Shown here: positions 7,121-18,056 of the stretch, piece by piece
Numbering within the stretch: the stretch's first letter is position 1
Layout: each line of letters opens with the position of its first letter
Origin: Acetobacter sp. DsW_063
GTDB lineage: Bacteria > Pseudomonadota > Alphaproteobacteria > Acetobacterales > Acetobacteraceae
Direction: 5' to 3'
Assembly (NCBI RefSeq): GCF_002153745.1
Contig: NZ_JOPL01000017.1
Location: 1-64,000 of the forward strand
DNA length: 64,000 nt
Position numbers and translations under genes: made by a program
The notes under the pieces: generated by a model
Told to the model about the DNA's origin: nothing
The model's input: only the letters and a program-made list of their open reading frames with translations
The model's database searches: none

Positions 7121-8620
7121 ATGGCTCTGGCGTCGCTCATGAGCGGCTGGCGCGGTCCCACTGTGTCTCCTGTACGCGAATGTCTGGCGGGAATGGTTGC
7201 TACGTTCGCGCTGATCCCGGAAGTAATCGCTTTTGCATCGGCCGCAGGCGTCGACCCTTCGGTTGGCCTGTACGCCTCCTTCGTCATCAGCGTGGTCATC
7301 GCATTCGCCGGTGGACGCCCCGCCATGATCTCCGCCGCCGCAGGGTCAGTCGCACTGGTCGCAGCCGGGTTAGTGCACACGCACGGAGTACAATACCTGT
7401 TCGCGGCGACGTTGTTGTGCGGCGCGATCCAGGTAGTGTTCGGCTTGCTGCGGGTCCATGTTCTGATGCGCTTCGTGGCGCGTTCAGTTCGTACGGGCTT
7501 CGTGAACGCTTTGGCTATCCTGATCTTTTACGCTCAAACGCCGCATATGATCAGCGTGTCGTGGCAGACATACGCGCTGATCGCGCTGGGCCTCGCGATT
7601 ATCTATCTCGTGCCGAAGGTTTTCACGGCCATACCTTCCCCGCTCATCTGCATCGTGGTTCTCACAGCGATTGTCACGATGTATCCGATGCCGGTGGAGA
7701 CTGTGGCGGACCTTGGCCGCCTTCCGGACGGCCTGCCGACGCCGGGCTTCCCTCACCTTCCCCTGACTTTCAAGACGCTGGGCATCGTGGCCCCATACGC
7801 GTTCGCTATGGCGATGGTCGGGCTGCTCGAAAGCCTGATGACCGCACGGGTCGTCGACGATATGACGGGAACGACGTCGGACAAGCGCCGTGAGAGCGTC
7901 GGGCTTGGGCTGGCCAATTTTGCAGCCGGCGCGTTCGGCGGAATCGGCGGATGCGGGATGATCGGTCAAACCGTAGGCAATGTTCGTTACGGCGGACGGG
8001 GACGCCTCTCAACATTGATGGCCGGGGTTTTTCTACTCGTACTGATCGTCGCGCTTCGTCCGTTCATTGCCCGCATACCGGTCGCGGCACTCGTCGCCAT
8101 CATGGTCATGGTGTCGATCAGCACGTTCTCATGGGCGTCGCTGCGTGAACTGGTCGCGCACCCGAGACTGGCGAGCACAGTGATGCTCAGCACGGTTGCG
8201 GTGGTGGTCGCCACCAGCGACCTTGCGGCCGGCGTGGCCGTTGGCGTTCTGCTGAGCGGCGTATTCTTCGCTTCGAACGTCTCTTCAATGCTTCGCGTGG
8301 AAAAGATGCTGGACGCTACCTCCGGCGCGCGAAAATACGTCGTGCGCGGCGAAATTTTCTTCGCATCAGCGGAGCTTCTCGAGGAATCGATCGATTACGG
8401 CGATTCTACCGAAACATCCGGCGTCGCCCCCGCTTCACCACGAGATGTCGTTATCGACCTTCGGAGCGCCCATCTTTGGGACATTACATCTGTGGGATCG
8501 GTGGAGGCCATCGTGGAGAAACTGCGCGCACGGGGGCACAGCGTGACGTTGCTTGGCTTAAACGAAGCCAGCGAAGCGCTGCTGCGGCGCCACGGGGATG
8601 TTGACGCCACTATAGCCTGA
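7121..8620 (+). CDS. SulP-family (SLC26-type) anion transporter
   Basis: Inner-membrane anion permease of 499 aa. The membrane domain starts with the family hallmark region (AGMVATFALIPEVIAFASAAGVDPSVGLYASFV), has about a dozen hydrophobic segments to residue ~400, and includes the second signature around GGCGMIGQTVGNVRYGGRGRLS. The C-terminus from about residue 410 is a short STAS domain (VVIDLRSAHLWDITSVGSVEAIVEKL). AAAGGA lies 9 nt before ATG 7121. Substrates of the family include sulfate, bicarbonate and dicarboxylates; the sequence does not settle which. The gene appears monocistronic. Confidence 0.88.
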   Translation: MALASLMSGWRGPTVSPVRECLAGMVATFALIPEVIAFASAAGVDPSVGLYASFVISVVIAFAGGRPAMISAAAGSVALVAAGLVHTHGVQYLFAATLLCGAIQVVFGLLRVHVLMRFVARSVRTGFVNALAILIFYAQTPHMISVSWQTYALIALGLAIIYLVPKVFTAIPSPLICIVVLTAIVTMYPMPVETVADLGRLPDGLPTPGFPHLPLTFKTLGIVAPYAFAMAMVGLLESLMTARVVDDMTGTTSDKRRESVGLGLANFAAGAFGGIGGCGMIGQTVGNVRYGGRGRLSTLMAGVFLLVLIVALRPFIARIPVAALVAIMVMVSISTFSWASLRELVAHPRLASTVMLSTVAVVVATSDLAAGVAVGVLLSGVFFASNVSSMLRVEKMLDATSGARKYVVRGEIFFASAELLEESIDYGDSTETSGVAPASPRDVVIDLRSAHLWDITSVGSVEAIVEKLRARGHSVTLLGLNEASEALLRRHGDVDATIA

Positions 8621-8839: not shown

Positions 8840-10276
8840 ATGAAGTCAGGGTTCATGTCCAAACGCCGAAATCGTCAACTGCCTGACGGGTTGCACCGTC
8901 TCTGGAAATACGCGCGTGAGATGCTGCTCAGCCTGGCGCGAGCGCGCGGCGGGAATGTCGTCGTACTCACCGCGTTCTGCGCATTGCCTGTAATAACTGC
9001 AATGGGCGCCGCGATCGATATTTCGCGCGTGCATGGCGCACAGACATCGCTGCAATCGGTCTGCGACGCTGCGGCTCTTGCCGCGGCGAAGAGCGGAAAC
9101 CTTTCCGTAGCAGCTGCGGAATCTTCCTCGGGTAGGACATCCGACGCACAGGCGGCCGCCTCCTCTGCGGCACAATCCTTTGTCAGCGGCAATTATTTGA
9201 CTTCAGGCCTGACATCCTCTCCGGACCTAAGCATCTCAACAACCGTGAGCGCCGCGAATGTCGTAACGGTGACAGTAACCCTGACTTACAACCAGTCATT
9301 GTTGTTCGGGTCGATCTTCGGAATCAGCTCGACGCCGGTGACGGTGACGTCAACTGCTACGGTCGCTTTAGGCAGTTCCTACTATCAGGTCGTATTTCTT
9401 ATCGATGTCTCGAACTCGATGGGGATCGGCGGCACCTCAACCGCGATCGCCGCATTGCAATCGAACAGGCAGATACAATGCGCATTCGCCTGTCATGACC
9501 CCAATTCCTACTCATCCGTCACCACCGACTGCGTAGCGTCTTCTGGAAGCGGCAATCGCCATCATGGGGGTTCATCCAACGGCGCGAGCGTATGCGATAA
9601 GCGTGCAATTGCAAAAGCCGCCGGAATTTCCCTGAAAATCGATTATGTTAGTCAGGCTGTCGAAGACTTTATCACTCAGTTGGATGAGTACACCGGAAAC
9701 GACACCACACATTTTACCGTCGCCATAGATACATTCGGCACAAATTTTACGCAGGCGCTTGCTCCGACGACGAACCTTTCATCAGCGCTGACCGCCGCCG
9801 AGAACATCGACATCGAGACGGTATTGCCATGGGCGACGTACAACTATGGCTACACGTACACCCAGAAAGCTCTCAGTTCAGCTTTGTCATCAATCACGAA
9901 TGTCGGCGACGGCTCATCTCCGACGAAGATGCGAACATTTCTGGTCTTTTTGTCAGACGGGGCTGAGGACCTCCCCGGCCCTTATGTCGATTATGGGCGG
10001 TCGCTGGACGTCGCTTACTCCAGCCAATGCGACGCTTTGAAAAATTCCGGAATCAATATTTTTTCTATATGGGCGCATTACTATCCGATTCCAACAGATT
10101 CACAATACTCAACGCTGGTTGCGCCGATCAGTGCGAATCTCGGCCCGACAATGCAGGCTTGCGCGTCCTCTTCCGACCAATATTTCGAGGCGTCGGACGG
10201 TCCCGCGATCCAGAGCGCGATAAGTTCAAGCTTCGTGGCAATTGCGGCTGCGGTCGGCCTGCATCTGTCGAAGTAG
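8840..10276 (+). CDS. TadG-like membrane-anchored protein with von Willebrand A domain
   Basis: The protein has 478 residues. After a basic N-terminus, residues about 35-60 form a single membrane segment in a TadE/TadG-type context (GGNVVVLTAFCALPVITAMGAAIDISRV), followed by the Ala-rich helix typical of Tad pseudopilin-like proteins. A von Willebrand A domain follows, with an intact metal site DVSNSMG (DxSxS) near residue 188 and the later SDG motif (LVFLSDGAED). Tad pilus genes (tadA, cpaBC and so on) are absent nearby, so this is an orphan. An extracytoplasmic, metal-dependent adhesion or assembly role is inferred only from the domains. Confidence 0.75.
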   Translation: MKSGFMSKRRNRQLPDGLHRLWKYAREMLLSLARARGGNVVVLTAFCALPVITAMGAAIDISRVHGAQTSLQSVCDAAALAAAKSGNLSVAAAESSSGRTSDAQAAASSAAQSFVSGNYLTSGLTSSPDLSISTTVSAANVVTVTVTLTYNQSLLFGSIFGISSTPVTVTSTATVALGSSYYQVVFLIDVSNSMGIGGTSTAIAALQSNRQIQCAFACHDPNSYSSVTTDCVASSGSGNRHHGGSSNGASVCDKRAIAKAAGISLKIDYVSQAVEDFITQLDEYTGNDTTHFTVAIDTFGTNFTQALAPTTNLSSALTAAENIDIETVLPWATYNYGYTYTQKALSSALSSITNVGDGSSPTKMRTFLVFLSDGAEDLPGPYVDYGRSLDVAYSSQCDALKNSGINIFSIWAHYYPIPTDSQYSTLVAPISANLGPTMQACASSSDQYFEASDGPAIQSAISSSFVAIAAAVGLHLSK

Positions 10277-10304: not shown

Positions 10305-10517
10305 TCAGATCGGAGGCGGTTTATACCAGGTCGGCGCACGCTGCCCGTGATGATGTTTAGGATGTAGCGTCGTGTGTTCCTGCTCGTCAGAACATGCCGC
10401 GGGGAGAAGAGCCACTGCGACCAGCGCGACCAAACACAGCCGCCTTATCGCACCGCTTACCCTCGTCCCAGACGAAGTCAAAATCCAATTGCCGATTTTA
10501 AGGGGGGGTAATGTCAT
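10305..10517 (-). CDS. Small putative lipoprotein ending the MCE operon
   Basis: A 70-residue frame overlaps the preceding lipoprotein gene by 20 nt. A hydrophobic segment (CLVALVAVALLPAAC) ends in a plausible lipobox LPAAC with Cys at about residue 42, followed by a short mature part rich in His and Pro (HPKHHHGQ...WYKPPP). No family is recognised. Its position at the end of a tightly coupled operon and its lipobox favour a real gene, but the length of the N-terminus before the signal is uncertain and no strong ribosome site is visible. Confidence 0.5.
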   Translation of the reverse strand: MTLPPLKIGNWILTSSGTRVSGAIRRLCLVALVAVALLPAACSDEQEHTTLHPKHHHGQRAPTWYKPPPI

Positions 10518-11481
10518 CTGTCATCTTCTTCGCGTCGAACGGCTCAAGCGCAAAAGGTATCGCCGCTTCTTGCGAAAGTTGCAACGCGAGACCGTCTGGC
10601 GCCTGGGCGCCATCCGAGCGCGCCGCCACGCTTTGAGCCGCGCGCGCCAGCAGAGACGCCGCCACATCGTTATGACCTGCCGCGCGAGCGGCATGGGCTT
10701 CGACCACCAAAGCGCGCGCCATAGCGCGATACTCGCCAGTACTCTGGCGCGATGCAACGGACTCAGCAGCCAGAGACATGGCTTCTGATGGCGACGAGGA
10801 AAGCGACGCGCGGGCGCGAAGTTCCGCGAGATCCCCTTTTAGAACCGCCGTATGCGGGCGGGGTGCGCTCGCAAGCGTCTGAATACTGGCGGCGAGCGTC
10901 CTGATATCGCCTCGATCCGAAGCAATCAGGCCGCCGAGAAAAGCAGCGCGAAGCGCCACGTCATGAATAGAACTCGTACGAGCCTGCGCCGCGCTGCGCG
11001 CAGCCTCATCATATCGCCTCAGCCGGTAAAGCGCCGCAGCGCTCACAAGGTTCAGACCTCCTGTGTCCGGGCGGGTAACGCCTGCTTTTCCTCTGGTCCC
11101 CCGCCCCGGCGTCACGGCGTCAGATGAAGCGCGCAAAGACAACGCCTCGCGTGCTTCGCGCACAGTAGCAAGGGCGTTCTCAGGCTCACCTGCCGCAAGC
11201 TGCGTGACAGCCAGATTGAAAGACGCATCTGCGATCGCAGCCGCATCGTCATGGCGCACGGCCAGCCGCGTGGCCATCCGATACTGTTGCTCCGCCACCG
11301 AATAACGCTCGATAGCGAGGGCGTTCTGGCCGGAATCCATAGCCTGAACGTATTCGTCATTCTGCTGCTTCACCGTGTCGTCCGGCTGTGCGCCGCCGCA
11401 TCCCAATAGAGACGACGTCAAAAACAGAGCCGCCACAATCGGGACGCCGACAAACCGCGAGCGGGGGTGAATCGTCCTCAT
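10498..11481 (-). CDS. Lipoprotein with TPR-like helical repeats, MCE operon
   Basis: Start chosen at ATG 11481 because it overlaps the stop of the MCE gene as ATGA, giving 327 aa. Signal peptide ends in the lipobox LLGC with Cys28. The mature part is alpha-helical, with TPR-like stretches such as ALAIERYSVAEQQYRMATRLA and DASFNLAVTQLAAGEPENALATVREA. It occupies the place that PqiC-type or ABC-auxiliary lipoproteins take in other MCE operons but does not look like them. An outer-membrane or periplasmic partner of the MCE protein is an inference from context. Confidence 0.7.
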   Translation of the reverse strand: MRTIHPRSRFVGVPIVAALFLTSSLLGCGGAQPDDTVKQQNDEYVQAMDSGQNALAIERYSVAEQQYRMATRLAVRHDDAAAIADASFNLAVTQLAAGEPENALATVREAREALSLRASSDAVTPGRGTRGKAGVTRPDTGGLNLVSAAALYRLRRYDEAARSAAQARTSSIHDVALRAAFLGGLIASDRGDIRTLAASIQTLASAPRPHTAVLKGDLAELRARASLSSSPSEAMSLAAESVASRQSTGEYRAMARALVVEAHAARAAGHNDVAASLLARAAQSVAARSDGAQAPDGLALQLSQEAAIPFALEPFDAKKMTDDITPP

Positions 11482-12431
11482 GGGGACACCGTGCGAGCGG
11501 GCAGACGGTGTTCCGTGGAAGTCGTGTGGCCACCCAGAAGCCACAGACCGCGCAACTGTTCAGTCAGCTTCTGAAGATTATAGAGCGACATCTGAGCCTG
11601 GGTCATCAAGGCAGGGAAATCGGCAAGACTTTCGTCGGCGTTCTTGGCGATCGAAGGCAAACGCGGCGTAGCGTTTTTAAGATCGTTGGTCGCCGACTGA
11701 ACATTCGCCATCGAAGCGTCGGATTTCGCAAGAATGGCCTTCACTTGCTCTTCTTCCGGGCGCAACCGGTTGATGACGTCGTTCAAGGACACGATGGTGG
11801 ATTCAGCCTGCCGGATCAGCTGGTCATTCGTAAGGAGTTCTCCGACGTTCCCCTTGCCCGCATGGATATCGGTGACGATGGCGTCGAGTTCGCCCGTCAT
11901 ATGCCGAGCATTGGCGATGGCTGGCATGACCTGCGCCTGAATGTCTTTCAGGGTCTGGGTGATCATATCAGTGGGGCTAGGCTCTGTTGTCGCGTTGATG
12001 ACCGCGTAATTCCAGTTCATGGGCTCGCCCGAACCGCGCGTCAGATCCAGATAACTGGCGCCGGCCACCACGAACTGCTTTCGAATGACAGCCTGGCTAT
12101 CGCGGCGGATGAAGGGCTCGACCTGAGGATCGAGATCCACGATCGCATACATCGCCCCCGACGGATTCAACCGGATGGCCCGGATCGTTCCCGCGTGCGC
12201 GCCGAGAATCTGCACATCGCCGCCGACCGTAAGCCCGCCCACGCCTGAATTCGGCAGAATGACGCGCAGGCTGGCTGGCGGGCTAAGCCAGTCACTGAGC
12301 ACGCCCGCCTCGACGACTGCGCCCGCAAACAGCAGGGTGCTGATCAATACGAGCAGCCCGACCCATTCGTCGGCATAACGAAGACGGATGAGAGGGCGGC
12401 TTCTGTTCTGCCGTAATCTGATCTGGAACAT
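11478..12431 (-). CDS. MCE-domain (MlaD-type) substrate-binding protein
   Basis: Start set at ATG 12431, which overlaps the ATPase stop as TGATG; product 317 aa. An N-terminal membrane anchor (EWVGLLVLISTLLFAGAVVEA, about residues 22-42) is followed by one MCE domain (about 55-140, with VILPNSGVGGLTVGGDVQILGAHAGTI and GASYLDLTRG). The remaining ~170 residues are predicted helical and coiled. MCE proteins form periplasmic rings that carry lipids for Mla-like systems. The length resembles MCE proteins of the Ttg2/Mla-like ABC importers with long helical tails. Firmly MCE; the cargo is unknown. Confidence 0.88.
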   Translation of the reverse strand: MFQIRLRQNRSRPLIRLRYADEWVGLLVLISTLLFAGAVVEAGVLSDWLSPPASLRVILPNSGVGGLTVGGDVQILGAHAGTIRAIRLNPSGAMYAIVDLDPQVEPFIRRDSQAVIRKQFVVAGASYLDLTRGSGEPMNWNYAVINATTEPSPTDMITQTLKDIQAQVMPAIANARHMTGELDAIVTDIHAGKGNVGELLTNDQLIRQAESTIVSLNDVINRLRPEEEQVKAILAKSDASMANVQSATNDLKNATPRLPSIAKNADESLADFPALMTQAQMSLYNLQKLTEQLRGLWLLGGHTTSTEHRLPARTVSP

Positions 12432-13168
12432 CAGCGTATCCGTACCGTTAGCAATCCGTCGTCCGCAAGCCGCCACTGGGAGGTCACCGCGCGACGATAC
12501 TCACGCCACGTCGATGAAGTTCGGCCGAACCAGATAACCGACGCGCCGCGGTCACGCGCCTCGGTCAACGATTCAAGGAATGGCGTCGACAGATCGACCG
12601 CAGTGGTTTCAAGGGGATCTTCAAGCAGCAACAACCTTGGTTTTCCAAGAAACCCCCTGACGCAGGTCATGCGAGCCAGATCTGCGTCGGACAATCTTCC
12701 CGGCGCATCTACTGGAATGCCCGGAAGTCCGAAACGTTCCCCAAGCCGCACGGCCTCTGCCGTAAGGTCCTCTATGGAACGGTTCGTGTGGTGAAGTTCC
12801 TTGAGCATCATCTGCATATGCGCGCCAAACAAGCCGCTCCAGTTTGGACGACGCGTAATGCGCCCGATTCGTCCACGCAGGGCGTTCGCACGGCGGTCAC
12901 CCAACGCGCTCCAGTCCAGACCAAGAAAACGCACAGTTCCGGCCCGAAGATCGAGCATTCCTGCACACAAATCAGCGAACATGGTGGCTCGTCCCATATC
13001 GCGCGTTTCAATGACCATGCACTCGCCCGGCATCAGCCTCATGGTCAGCGGCAACGGCGGCAAAGCCGCGCCTTCCTGCAACAAGGTCGCCCCAGACAAC
13101 TCCAGCACGGCGCCAACCGTCCGTTTCATGGCGTGCCCAGCCAATTGAGGCGACTCTTCTTGCGACAC
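12431..13168 (-). CDS. MlaF-type ABC ATPase homologue with degenerate nucleotide motifs
   Basis: The protein has 245 residues from GTG 13168 (GGGAGA 6 nt upstream) and lies between the permease and MCE genes, where MlaF is expected. The ATPase motifs are almost all altered. Walker A reads E54-TRDM-G59-R60-A61 instead of GxxxxGK[ST]. The signature reads L159-S-D-A-D instead of LSGGQ. Walker B ends E183-D184 instead of D-E. The Q-loop Gln and the switch His (VIWFGRTSS) are missing. The overall fold is still recognisable (PRLLLLEDP, domain length). Catalysis of ATP hydrolysis is unlikely; nucleotide binding or a purely structural role is possible. Confidence 0.75.
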   Translation of the reverse strand: MSQEESPQLAGHAMKRTVGAVLELSGATLLQEGAALPPLPLTMRLMPGECMVIETRDMGRATMFADLCAGMLDLRAGTVRFLGLDWSALGDRRANALRGRIGRITRRPNWSGLFGAHMQMMLKELHHTNRSIEDLTAEAVRLGERFGLPGIPVDAPGRLSDADLARMTCVRGFLGKPRLLLLEDPLETTAVDLSTPFLESLTEARDRGASVIWFGRTSSTWREYRRAVTSQWRLADDGLLTVRIR

Positions 13169-13180
13169 AGCCGGTCTCCC

Positions 13181-14128
13181 TCACAATTTCAGGCTGAACA
13201 GGACGCTTACGGCCATGACGATCAGCATTCCTCTCGAAAAGCCCCGCGGCAACATTGTCGACACCGTGTCTTCGCTGCTCGCCGTCAGACCGCTGACGCA
13301 ACAACCGAGCCCCACCAGAAATCCAACGACGATGAACTTCAGCGGGATGAGGATGTAATCGGCTGGCGTCATGGCCGTGACGACGTCGTAAAAAAACGAC
13401 CAGATGGAGTTGGAAATCGCCCCCGAGGCGCGACTGACGACATAACCGGTAGCAAGCGACGCTACGGAGAACAGTATGCCAAGCGTAAAGCCCGACACGG
13501 TGAAGGCCAGAGTGCGCGGCAGCACCAGCAATAAGAAAGGATCGACGCCTTCAGCCTGCATCGACTTGACCTGTCCGCCGGTCGTAAGCATCCCCAACTC
13601 GGTAAGCGCCAGCATTCCGCTGCGTCCGAGCATAAGCACGCCCACCAGAATGGGCGCGATTTCACGGACGATAACGGTCACCAGCAGCGAGCCCGTCATC
13701 TTCGACATCCCGGCGAACCCAAGCCAGTAGATAGCCTGCGACACGCCCCCTAACCCGGTCAGCGTGCCAGTGACGAGCGTCGCCACAAGACCGCCTCCAG
13801 CGACCTCACCAAGCGTCGTACGAAATTCGTAACGGACGGTCCGACGCCAGGTGTTGGGACGAACGCTTTCGTGCAGGACGCCCCAGATCGTCCCCAGCAT
13901 GATCAGAAGAAACCACACTCGATGACGGGTTACGCTGCCGATGAAAGCCAGAAACACCCGTATCTTGCCGGAAAGGGTGTTCTCGTTCGGTTGGCTGTCG
14001 TCGCGAGCGTAATGCGCGACGCACTCCTCGTCAGGACGTGCGGCGCCGCCAGCCGTCCCGGCAAACGCCTCCCCGTCGCGCTGGCTCCCGCCGTCGGTTG
14101 GCGGCGTGTCTGGCTGATCATCGCTCAT
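13181..14128 (-). CDS. MlaE-family ABC permease
   Basis: The protein has 315 residues. The first ~65 residues are hydrophilic and unusual for the family. The MlaE core then shows the expected order: a TLGEVAGGGLVATLVTGTLTG segment, REIAPILVGVLMLGRSGMLALTELGMLTTGGQVKSMQAEGVDPFLLLVLPR (the family signature, here with LTELG for the usual AELG), and three C-terminal membrane helices. ATG 14128 overlaps the stop of the sensor gene as ATGA, so translation is coupled to it. Predicted role is the inner-membrane part of a lipid transporter with the adjacent ATPase-like and MCE proteins. Confidence 0.9.
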   Translation of the reverse strand: MSDDQPDTPPTDGGSQRDGEAFAGTAGGAARPDEECVAHYARDDSQPNENTLSGKIRVFLAFIGSVTRHRVWFLLIMLGTIWGVLHESVRPNTWRRTVRYEFRTTLGEVAGGGLVATLVTGTLTGLGGVSQAIYWLGFAGMSKMTGSLLVTVIVREIAPILVGVLMLGRSGMLALTELGMLTTGGQVKSMQAEGVDPFLLLVLPRTLAFTVSGFTLGILFSVASLATGYVVSRASGAISNSIWSFFYDVVTAMTPADYILIPLKFIVVGFLVGLGCCVSGLTASSEDTVSTMLPRGFSRGMLIVMAVSVLFSLKL

Positions 14129-16634: not shown

Positions 16635-18056
16635 TTACGTAATAGGCGTTAGAGACCGATGACGCCAGCGGATAGCCCAGTAAAGCGCCGTAAAGACGAA
16701 CATGGCGGAAAAACTGGCCGGATAACCAAACCACACGCCCGACGCGCCATAGAGGTGGGCCGCTATATATCCGGCGGGCAATTCAACGCAGATGATCGCG
16801 CCAAGCAGAAGAGACATCGGCCCAACCGCGTCGCCGCTGGCGCGCATGGCGGACCCGAGCACGCCGGCCAGCGCGAGCGGCGTCGCGCTCCACATCACGA
16901 CACGAAACGCACGCGACGCAAGAGCGATTACATGCGCATCGGCGGTGAACAACGACGCGATCAGCGCCGGATCTAATGTCACGAATGCAGCAAGCCCCCC
17001 AGCCAGCGCCAGCGCCACGCAAAAGCCGAGGCGCAACACCGCGCGCGCCTCCTTCTCGTCACGCGCCCCAATGGCGTGAGCGGAAAGAACGGAAACAGTG
17101 ATGCCCACCGCCATGCCGGGATATTCGATATAGGTGAGCGTCTGGACGAATAGCCCGTAAGCCGCAGTCATATCTGAGCCGAAGCTGTTGATCCTCCCGA
17201 CCAGAGCAATCTCCGCAACTCCCATGGTCATGATCTCGACCATCGTGGGAAGGCCAAGCTGGAGTATTGGACGAAGCACCCGCCACGGAGCAAAAATTTG
17301 CCGGGCCATTTCAAGATCAGGCGCCAACGCGTGACGGGACAATCTGAGCCAAATCCCAACAACGATCAGGGCCATCACCCAGCCGATAACCGCCGCCGCC
17401 GCTGAGCCGGCGACGCCAAGCACAGGCGCTCCGAACCTCCCCTCGATCAGGATGGGTGTCAGCAGAAGCGATGTCAGAATCTGGACGATCATCATCACCA
17501 GCGGACGCACGCTGTCGCCGGCGCCCCGAAGGATAATCGCCGTCACCACGAGCAGAATGAGCCCCGGTGCACCCATCAAGATCGCCGCGGCATATCGGAC
17601 CGCATGATCCAGAACGTCCGCGGGCGTACCGAAAAGGACCAACAAGGGCCGGATGGAGACCTGACCAAAGGCGCAGATCGCGAGTCCAAGCGCAAAAGCG
17701 ACGCCCAGCGCAGCCGACGCGACGGTACGCGCCTCGCCCTGATCTCCCGCTCCCCAGTTCTGACCGACCAGAATGCTCGCACCGGTCCCCAGTCCCACGG
17801 AGCAAGAGATAAACACGAGAAACATCGGATAGAATGCACTGGCCGCGGCCAGATCATGCGGTCCCAGCAGGCGGCCGACATAGATATTGCCGATTGTCCC
17901 CGAAAGCGATTGCAGGACGGTGTCAAAAAGCACGGGCGCCATGAACAGGAAGAAACGCCACGGCAGCGTGCGATCACGCCCCTTGGACGAAGCGATGTCG
18001 ACGGTGACGTCCCGGGCGAGTTGTTCGTCCAGACCTGTTGGAACGATATCGGTCAT
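16635..18056 (-). CDS. MATE-family efflux transporter
   Basis: Twelve-helix inner-membrane exporter, 473 aa, of the multidrug and toxic compound extrusion family. Typical sequences include FMAPVLFDTVLQSLSGTIGN in helix 1-2, GTGASILVGQNWGAGD in the first half and AIGARDEKEARAVLR as its repeat in the second half, reflecting the internal duplication. ATG 18056 starts with a 35-residue hydrophilic cytosolic tail. Substrate and coupling ion are not evident. It is encoded upstream of, and in the same direction as, the MCE operon, but separated by about 185 bp. Confidence 0.9.
   Translation of the reverse strand: MTDIVPTGLDEQLARDVTVDIASSKGRDRTLPWRFFLFMAPVLFDTVLQSLSGTIGNIYVGRLLGPHDLAAASAFYPMFLVFISCSVGLGTGASILVGQNWGAGDQGEARTVASAALGVAFALGLAICAFGQVSIRPLLVLFGTPADVLDHAVRYAAAILMGAPGLILLVVTAIILRGAGDSVRPLVMMIVQILTSLLLTPILIEGRFGAPVLGVAGSAAAAVIGWVMALIVVGIWLRLSRHALAPDLEMARQIFAPWRVLRPILQLGLPTMVEIMTMGVAEIALVGRINSFGSDMTAAYGLFVQTLTYIEYPGMAVGITVSVLSAHAIGARDEKEARAVLRLGFCVALALAGGLAAFVTLDPALIASLFTADAHVIALASRAFRVVMWSATPLALAGVLGSAMRASGDAVGPMSLLLGAIICVELPAGYIAAHLYGASGVWFGYPASFSAMFVFTALYWAIRWRHRSLTPIT

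Follow-up and report, generated by a model that had tools for sequence, protein, structure and literature searches.

PqiABC and LetAB are MCE systems without an ATP-binding cassette (ABC) ATPase, using the membrane proteins PqiA or LetA instead, and in heterodimeric ABC transporters in which one site is degenerate, the other composite site still works. In MlaFEDB (Ttg2/Mla), an MlaE permease, an ABC-fold cytosolic subunit and an MCE protein are encoded together. A coupling helix between transmembrane helices 2 and 3 (TM2 and TM3) of MlaE makes the contact to MlaF, as two papers describe it (PMC7790496, PMC7784689). The mycobacterial Mce1 system uses a shared active ATPase, MceG, which is displaced by the membrane protein Mce1N, a negative regulator, according to an extract of PMC10517005. 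Here we describe a five-gene operon of Acetobacter sp. DsW_063, situated in the 64,000-nucleotide stretch that we call the window (positions 1 to 64,000 of contig NZ_JOPL01000017.1, forward strand), which encodes a cyclase-like sensor, an MlaE-family permease, an ABC nucleotide-binding domain (NBD) stripped of its catalytic motifs, an MCE protein and a lipoprotein. The data suggest a transport or sensing machine that is not driven by its own ATPase, and we place at about 0.5 the probability that its products make up an MlaE-based MCE complex of the envelope, in which the NBD would serve as a scaffold independent of nucleotide and the pseudo-cyclase sensor might provide the gating. No publication on this operon was found among open-licence PMC papers.

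The likeness to MlaFEDB lies in the joint encoding of permease, ABC-fold subunit and MCE protein, and in the MCE barrel, which matches E. coli MlaD (5uw8, Z 15.0, root-mean-square deviation (rmsd) 1.7, 96 aligned). The operon differs from MlaFEDB in that its NBD is without catalytic motifs and in sequence resembles MacB, LolD or FtsE at least as closely as MlaF, in the exchanged motif of its MlaE, and in two added proteins, the pseudo-cyclase sensor and the TPR-like lipoprotein; no MlaB (STAS) or MlaC Pfam match was obtained among the five operon proteins at E values up to 1. With PqiABC and LetAB it shares an MCE protein that has no active ATPase in its operon, but here an MlaE permease with an NBD-fold subunit is present. 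The MCE protein also resembles the NCBIfam family Mtu_fam_mce over residues 67-306 (41 bits, below the cut-off), and regulation at the permease-NBD contact, as in Mce1, is possible; in contrast, MceG is active and Mce1N is a membrane protein in the extract consulted. As in heterodimeric ABC transporters with a degenerate site, catalytic residues of the NBD are lost; unlike in those transporters, both sites should be dead here, because the loss of Walker A together with the signature would break both composite ATP sites even when a normal MlaF is the partner. A heterodimer with canonical MlaF that retains one good site is for this reason unlikely.

Motif loss and selection in the pseudo-ATPase

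An earlier note on this DNA had reported that the ATPase has lost Walker A, the signature, the Walker B order, the Q-loop Gln and the switch His, and alignment confirmed each of these losses. The P-loop of the window NBD reads E54-T-R-D-M-G59-R60-A61-T62, the signature position L159-S-D-A-D163 and Walker B E183-D184; Arg occupies both the Q-loop (106) and the switch-His (216) positions, leaving none of the Walker B Asp, catalytic Glu and switch His in place. Homologues were compared in 64 rows (the window, 61 loci, and the loci L084 and L085, the latter as an untrimmed stop-to-stop frame; the decayed L065 was excluded), and the Walker A Lys was found in 0/64, compared with 14/14 reference MlaF proteins, which represent 14 of 31 canonical loci. 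By the same alignment the remaining ATP-site residues are lost in nearly all homologues, with each P-loop Gly kept in 0 to 3 rows, the first signature Gly in 3, the second in 4, the Walker B Asp in 1, the switch His in 2, the catalytic Glu in 10 and the Q-loop Gln in 18. Residues invariant in 64/64 include W86, R98, G102, P149, G150, P152, D163 and R171, among which W86, G150, P152 and D163 depart from the usual MlaF residue.

The ABC-ATPase fold is predicted to be kept. The AlphaFold model of the NBD (pLDDT 92) has ABC ATPases as its best VIA matches, among them LolD 9rlj (Z 25.0, rmsd 2.5, 221 aligned) and MlaF 6xgz (Z 23.1, rmsd 3.1, 224 aligned); the 50 VIA matches listed lie at Z 22-25 and comprise LolD, FtsE, MacB, MlaF and others, with the rows named as transporters being ABC systems. 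Pfam ABC_tran scores 15.0 bits on the window NBD, under its 25-bit cut-off. This predicted fold and the retained P-loop length might allow the NBD to bind or hydrolyse ATP in a non-canonical manner, for example via the P-loop Arg60 (41/64) and Glu183, which stands where Walker B normally has its Asp (60/64); the Q-loop Gln kept in 18/64 also speaks for it. We regard such an activity as highly improbable, since the Walker A Lys is missing from every row and the P-loop Gly, signature Gly and switch His from almost all. No intact relative or intermediate of the pseudo-NBD occurs among the matches listed, in which E values jump from 9e-22 to 4e-12 past the family, and L066, the one locus inspected beyond this drop, encodes an ordinary ABC protein with GTGKS. 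PHROGs returned no family for the NBD and one weak family without a name for the TPR protein.

The pseudo-ATPase is retained in acetic acid bacteria. An NBD match at E 1e-30 with no internal stop is present in 49/49 genus genomes, including two of only 1.5 and 1.7 megabases (Mb), and a match at this threshold is present in 61/200 sampled family genomes. The ratio of nonsynonymous to synonymous substitution rates (dN/dS, or omega) was calculated by Nei-Gojobori for 21 pairs chosen as close relatives, overlapping gene regions included. For the NBD it lies at 0.05-0.24 in 17 of the 21 pairs; of the rest, one pair gave 0.33 at a dS of just 0.08, two pairs free of amino acid change gave zero, and one saturated pair gave no computable value. 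MlaE, MCE and cyclase genes show a range of omega similar to that of the NBD, the lipoprotein gene is mostly higher, and the MCE gene has the lowest omega of the five in 11/20 comparable pairs. By this measure the NBD gene is under purifying selection. The view put forward in the earlier note, that this is not simple decay, is therefore borne out by the genus and family matches and by omega far below 1, and the sequences give good support to its proposal that this subunit hydrolyses no ATP when the transporter runs, through the Walker A Lys missing in 64/64 and the purifying selection.

A strain-specific pseudogene is ruled out by the NBD dN/dS, which is not near 1, together with the genus and family matches, and no orthologue with an intact Walker A lends it support. 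A sequencing or frame error is likewise ruled out: A. nitrogenifigens, A. sacchari, A. estunensis, A. oeni and A. musti share the motif loss, and the window NBD is 100 percent identical to that of A. nitrogenifigens and 98 percent to that of A. sacchari, two species to which the source strain stands close. The assembly of the window genome is 69 percent complete. That the gene is a pseudogene in the course of being lost is barely credible in the face of 49/49 genus genomes without a stop, 61/200 family genomes and the low dN/dS; it can point to the truncated cyclase, MlaE and NBD frames of one genome (G126, locus L065) and the split cyclase frame of another (G136, L040). One TGA falls within the NBD match in each of three family genomes (G032, G118 and G170), and in G032 it stands at the 3' end, past a 244-aa NBD frame.

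The permease and its canonical counterparts

The window MlaE scores 116 bits against Pfam MlaE (cut-off 22.5) and 68.6 bits against TIGR00056, under the cut-off of 212. Its TM2-TM3 stretch reads GGQVKSM, as against DQIDAL in canonical copies, and the motif [DEN][QE][IV][DAS]AL between these helices is present in 31/31 canonical MlaE and in 0/62 operon MlaE (62 rows; L012, L040 and L065, with short MlaE frames, were left out). In the operon proteins the first position of the motif is Gly in 56/62 and the canonical Asp has become Arg or Lys in 55/62. We take the exchanged motif to lie in the coupling helix, and on this placement the NBD-facing stretch of MlaE is altered in parallel with the dead NBD. 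The earlier description of MlaE as intact thus holds for the fold and fails for the NBD-facing motif. A fully supported branch separates operon from canonical MlaE in the MlaE tree, which has long branches and was built without an outgroup.

An MlaE match was obtained in 30/30 genomes tested, and the 26/26 operon carriers among them have at least one further MlaE elsewhere. By script, the flanks of 26/31 canonical MlaE loci contain the Walker A, signature and Walker B motifs of an intact ATPase together; for L093, L102, L105, L107 and L115 the motif set was not shown, which the script or a cut flank may explain. The window genome itself carries one such canonical locus, of MlaE-MlaF-MlaD type, whose P-loop reads GGSGCGKS. 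These further copies raise the idea that the operon MlaE sometimes borrows a canonical MlaF, with the pseudo-NBD switching transport off, as competitor or placeholder, in a role like that of Mce1N; the exclusion of an NBD by Mce1N and the sharing of MceG, both in the extract of PMC10517005, are precedents. Such borrowing is unlikely in view of the operon MlaE proteins, none of which (0/62) has the canonical motif and most of which carry a basic residue in place of its Asp, and of the MlaF-type matches at E 1e-45 in ten genomes, 15/15 of which adjoin a canonical MlaE, weaker ATPases not having been examined. One of the ten genomes, G116, gave zero such matches, and an orphan MlaF-type (MceG-like) ATPase was found in none of the ten at this threshold, a search that did not extend to weaker homologues. 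The suggestion made in the earlier note, that the transporter borrows an ATPase encoded elsewhere, is accordingly disfavoured, and its other option, a passive or regulated lipid bridge, is conjectural, so that the interpretation given there is supported in part.

Pseudo-cyclase, gene layout and distribution

By alignment, the first gene of the operon encodes a Cache-GAF-class III cyclase without catalytic residues, conserved with the operon. Its Guanylate_cyc domain scores 61.2 bits (Pfam cut-off 21.9) and aligns to PDB 4p2m at E 9.1e-17. The homology to class III adenylate cyclases such as 4p2m is accompanied by the replacement of the residues that we take to be the second metal Asp (to His, GD to GH), the transition-state Asn and Arg (to Thr and Leu, VN..R to VT..L) and the purine-selecting Asp. 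Over 63 cyclase rows (L040 and L065 left out), none of the D-D-N-R catalytic set is kept in 16, one residue in 44 and two in 3, whereas two of three reference cyclases, taken from two of the same genomes, keep all four and the third keeps three. The first metal Asp is the residue most often retained (41/63), and the purine-selecting position is Asn in 61/63, a position that varies in the references too (D, L, I). In 5/7 genomes, a group of five that includes the incomplete window genome, the pseudo-cyclase is the sole PF00211 protein; because no other PF00211 protein exists there, rescue by a PF00211 partner is unlikely in these five. The ATPase observation of the earlier note stands, but it overlooked the pseudo-cyclase and the MlaE motif exchange, and the finding is larger than stated.

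The MCE protein scores 40.3 bits against Pfam MlaD (cut-off 25.1), and its AlphaFold model comprises a TM helix, an MCE barrel and a helical tail of ~145 residues (mean pLDDT 79, lower in the tail), with LetB and PqiB structures among its fold matches. Cys49 of the lipoprotein is invariant in 18/18 aligned sequences. It is conceivable, if doubtful, that the operon no longer encodes a transporter and that its products have a joint sensing or structural role on a reused ABC/MCE chassis, perhaps regulating canonical Mla or the state of the envelope, in an assembly in which the pseudo-enzymes would act as protein-protein signalling modules. Such an assembly would fit two nucleotide enzymes of one operon that both lack catalytic residues, a sensor with Cache and GAF domains, and the shortage of PF00211 partners noted above; it sits less well with an MCE protein that retains its predicted TM helix, barrel and helical tail and whose gene most often shows the lowest omega in the operon, and with an MlaE above the Pfam cut-off.

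The operon comprises five genes on the minus strand, from 16449 down to 10498 (Table 1). The earlier note had placed it at 10305-14128, and both ends required revision, as the operon continues upstream to 16449 and its last gene stops at 10498, with no operon gene seen at 10305-10497 of the window. Its claim of coupled genes was upheld: in the window, cyclase and MlaE overlap by 4 nt, the NBD/MCE and MCE/TPR frames overlap, and MlaE and NBD are spaced by 12 nt. Internal ATG codons occur at 13129 in the pseudo-ATPase gene and at 12431 in the MCE gene.

Table 1. Genes of the operon in the window
Feature	Positions	Strand	Evidence
Pseudo-cyclase: dCache_1 - GAF - class III cyclase domain, membrane sensor, 774 aa	14125-16449	minus	Pfam; alignment to PDB 4p2m; residue counts
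MlaE-family permease with exchanged TM2/TM3 motif	13181-14128	minus	Pfam; TIGR00056 (below cut-off); motif counts; MlaE tree
Pseudo-ATPase: ABC NBD fold lacking the catalytic motifs; GTG start, 245 aa	12431-13168	minus	Motif alignment; AlphaFold; VIA
MCE protein with TM helix, MCE barrel and long helical tail	11478-12476	minus	Pfam MlaD; NCBIfam Mtu_fam_mce (below cut-off); AlphaFold
TPR-like lipoprotein, lipobox LLGC	10498-11544	minus	TPR Pfam matches below cut-off

The arrangement recurs in relatives. Among 62 loci chosen by NBD match (six from named genomes, with species repeats possible within the set), cyclase, MlaE and MCE matches lie on the same strand in 62/62, and all five genes are present in 61/62, the remaining contig stopping inside MCE with the lipoprotein unseen there. 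With starts chosen by script, the cyclase and MlaE frames overlap in 55/62 loci and the NBD and MCE frames likewise in 55/62; larger spacings occur, and in two loci, for instance, cyclase and MlaE lie 990 nt apart. Taken alone, the cyclase gave a match at E 1e-120 in 151/299 genomes sampled from the order. Among 385 genomes sampled from the class, some of which belong to the family, G235 and G550 are two non-members that have full-length cyclase and NBD and carry the whole operon, with an NBD that is dead by motifs; 11 of 17 class genomes with a cyclase match do so in the sensor part only and were excluded as operon carriers. The MlaE of the two non-family operons is placed among family rows in the MlaE tree, a placement that suggests horizontal transfer, on branches that are long. 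L084 and L085 are operon loci from two genomes that belong to the class but to other families.

Near the operon, Pfam identifies a SulP-type permease with a STAS domain on the opposite strand (7121-8620) and a TadG-like protein with Tad and VWA domains (8840-10276), convergent with the operon. A MATE exporter gene (16635-18056) lies on the same strand, ~185 bases upstream of the cyclase gene, and a transposase-like gene with HTH_38 and an integrase core, by name presumably IS30-like, is found at 894-2144.

A proposed ATP-free MCE complex and its weight

The favoured reading starts from the motif loss, its fixation, the selection on the gene and the parallel change in MlaE, all of which are read from the sequences. 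From these we infer a contact between sensor and NBD, gating and a flow of lipid. The pseudo-NBD would hold the MlaE dimer and tie MlaE to the cytosolic pseudo-cyclase; the Cache domain may sense a periplasmic signal and shift the MlaE-MCE conformation; and lipid would then pass along its gradient via the MCE tube, with the TPR lipoprotein assisting and with no ATP hydrolysis in the operon complex during lipid movement.

Several observations weigh against this reading. The NBD has no match in 139/200 family genomes, where at most 14 candidates were scored per genome (at most 7 in the class search), so that a miss is weak evidence, and the cyclase, MlaE and NBD frames of G126 are truncated, in contrast to the long frames of its genus sister G046. 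Canonical MlaE, mostly beside an intact MlaF, is present in the operon genomes. In the profile search of the NBD, MacB (1.6e-18), DppD, BceA, LolD and FtsE all rank above MlaF (2.2e-14), and NCBIfam returned DevA, FtsE and LolD, all far under cut-off, with MlaF not among the matches; the term MlaF-like thus refers to position beside MlaE, since in sequence other ABC ATPases are at least as near as MlaF, and descent of the NBD from MlaF is not demonstrated. Loss of ATP binding is judged from the motifs and the functional roles of ABC catalytic residues, the lipid substrate is assumed from homology of MlaE and the MCE protein, and the presumed contact between pseudo-cyclase and pseudo-NBD is drawn from gene order and overlap. 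More tentatively, the operon may represent a separate class of MCE machine, derived from an ABC transporter that became a lipid bridge gated by a sensor and free of ATP, its motor and a nucleotide cyclase having both turned into pseudo-enzymes; the periplasmic Cache signal would be relayed from pseudo-cyclase to pseudo-NBD and on to MlaE-MCE by protein contacts.

The finding bears on how MCE systems are energised and on whether inter-membrane lipid flow needs ATP. Two pseudo-enzymes are fixed together in one operon, and the motor-facing stretch of the permease has changed alongside the dead motor. A natural ABC-type MCE complex with an NBD that should be inactive, present in 49/49 genomes of a culturable genus and kept even at 1.5 Mb, offers a direct test of that question.

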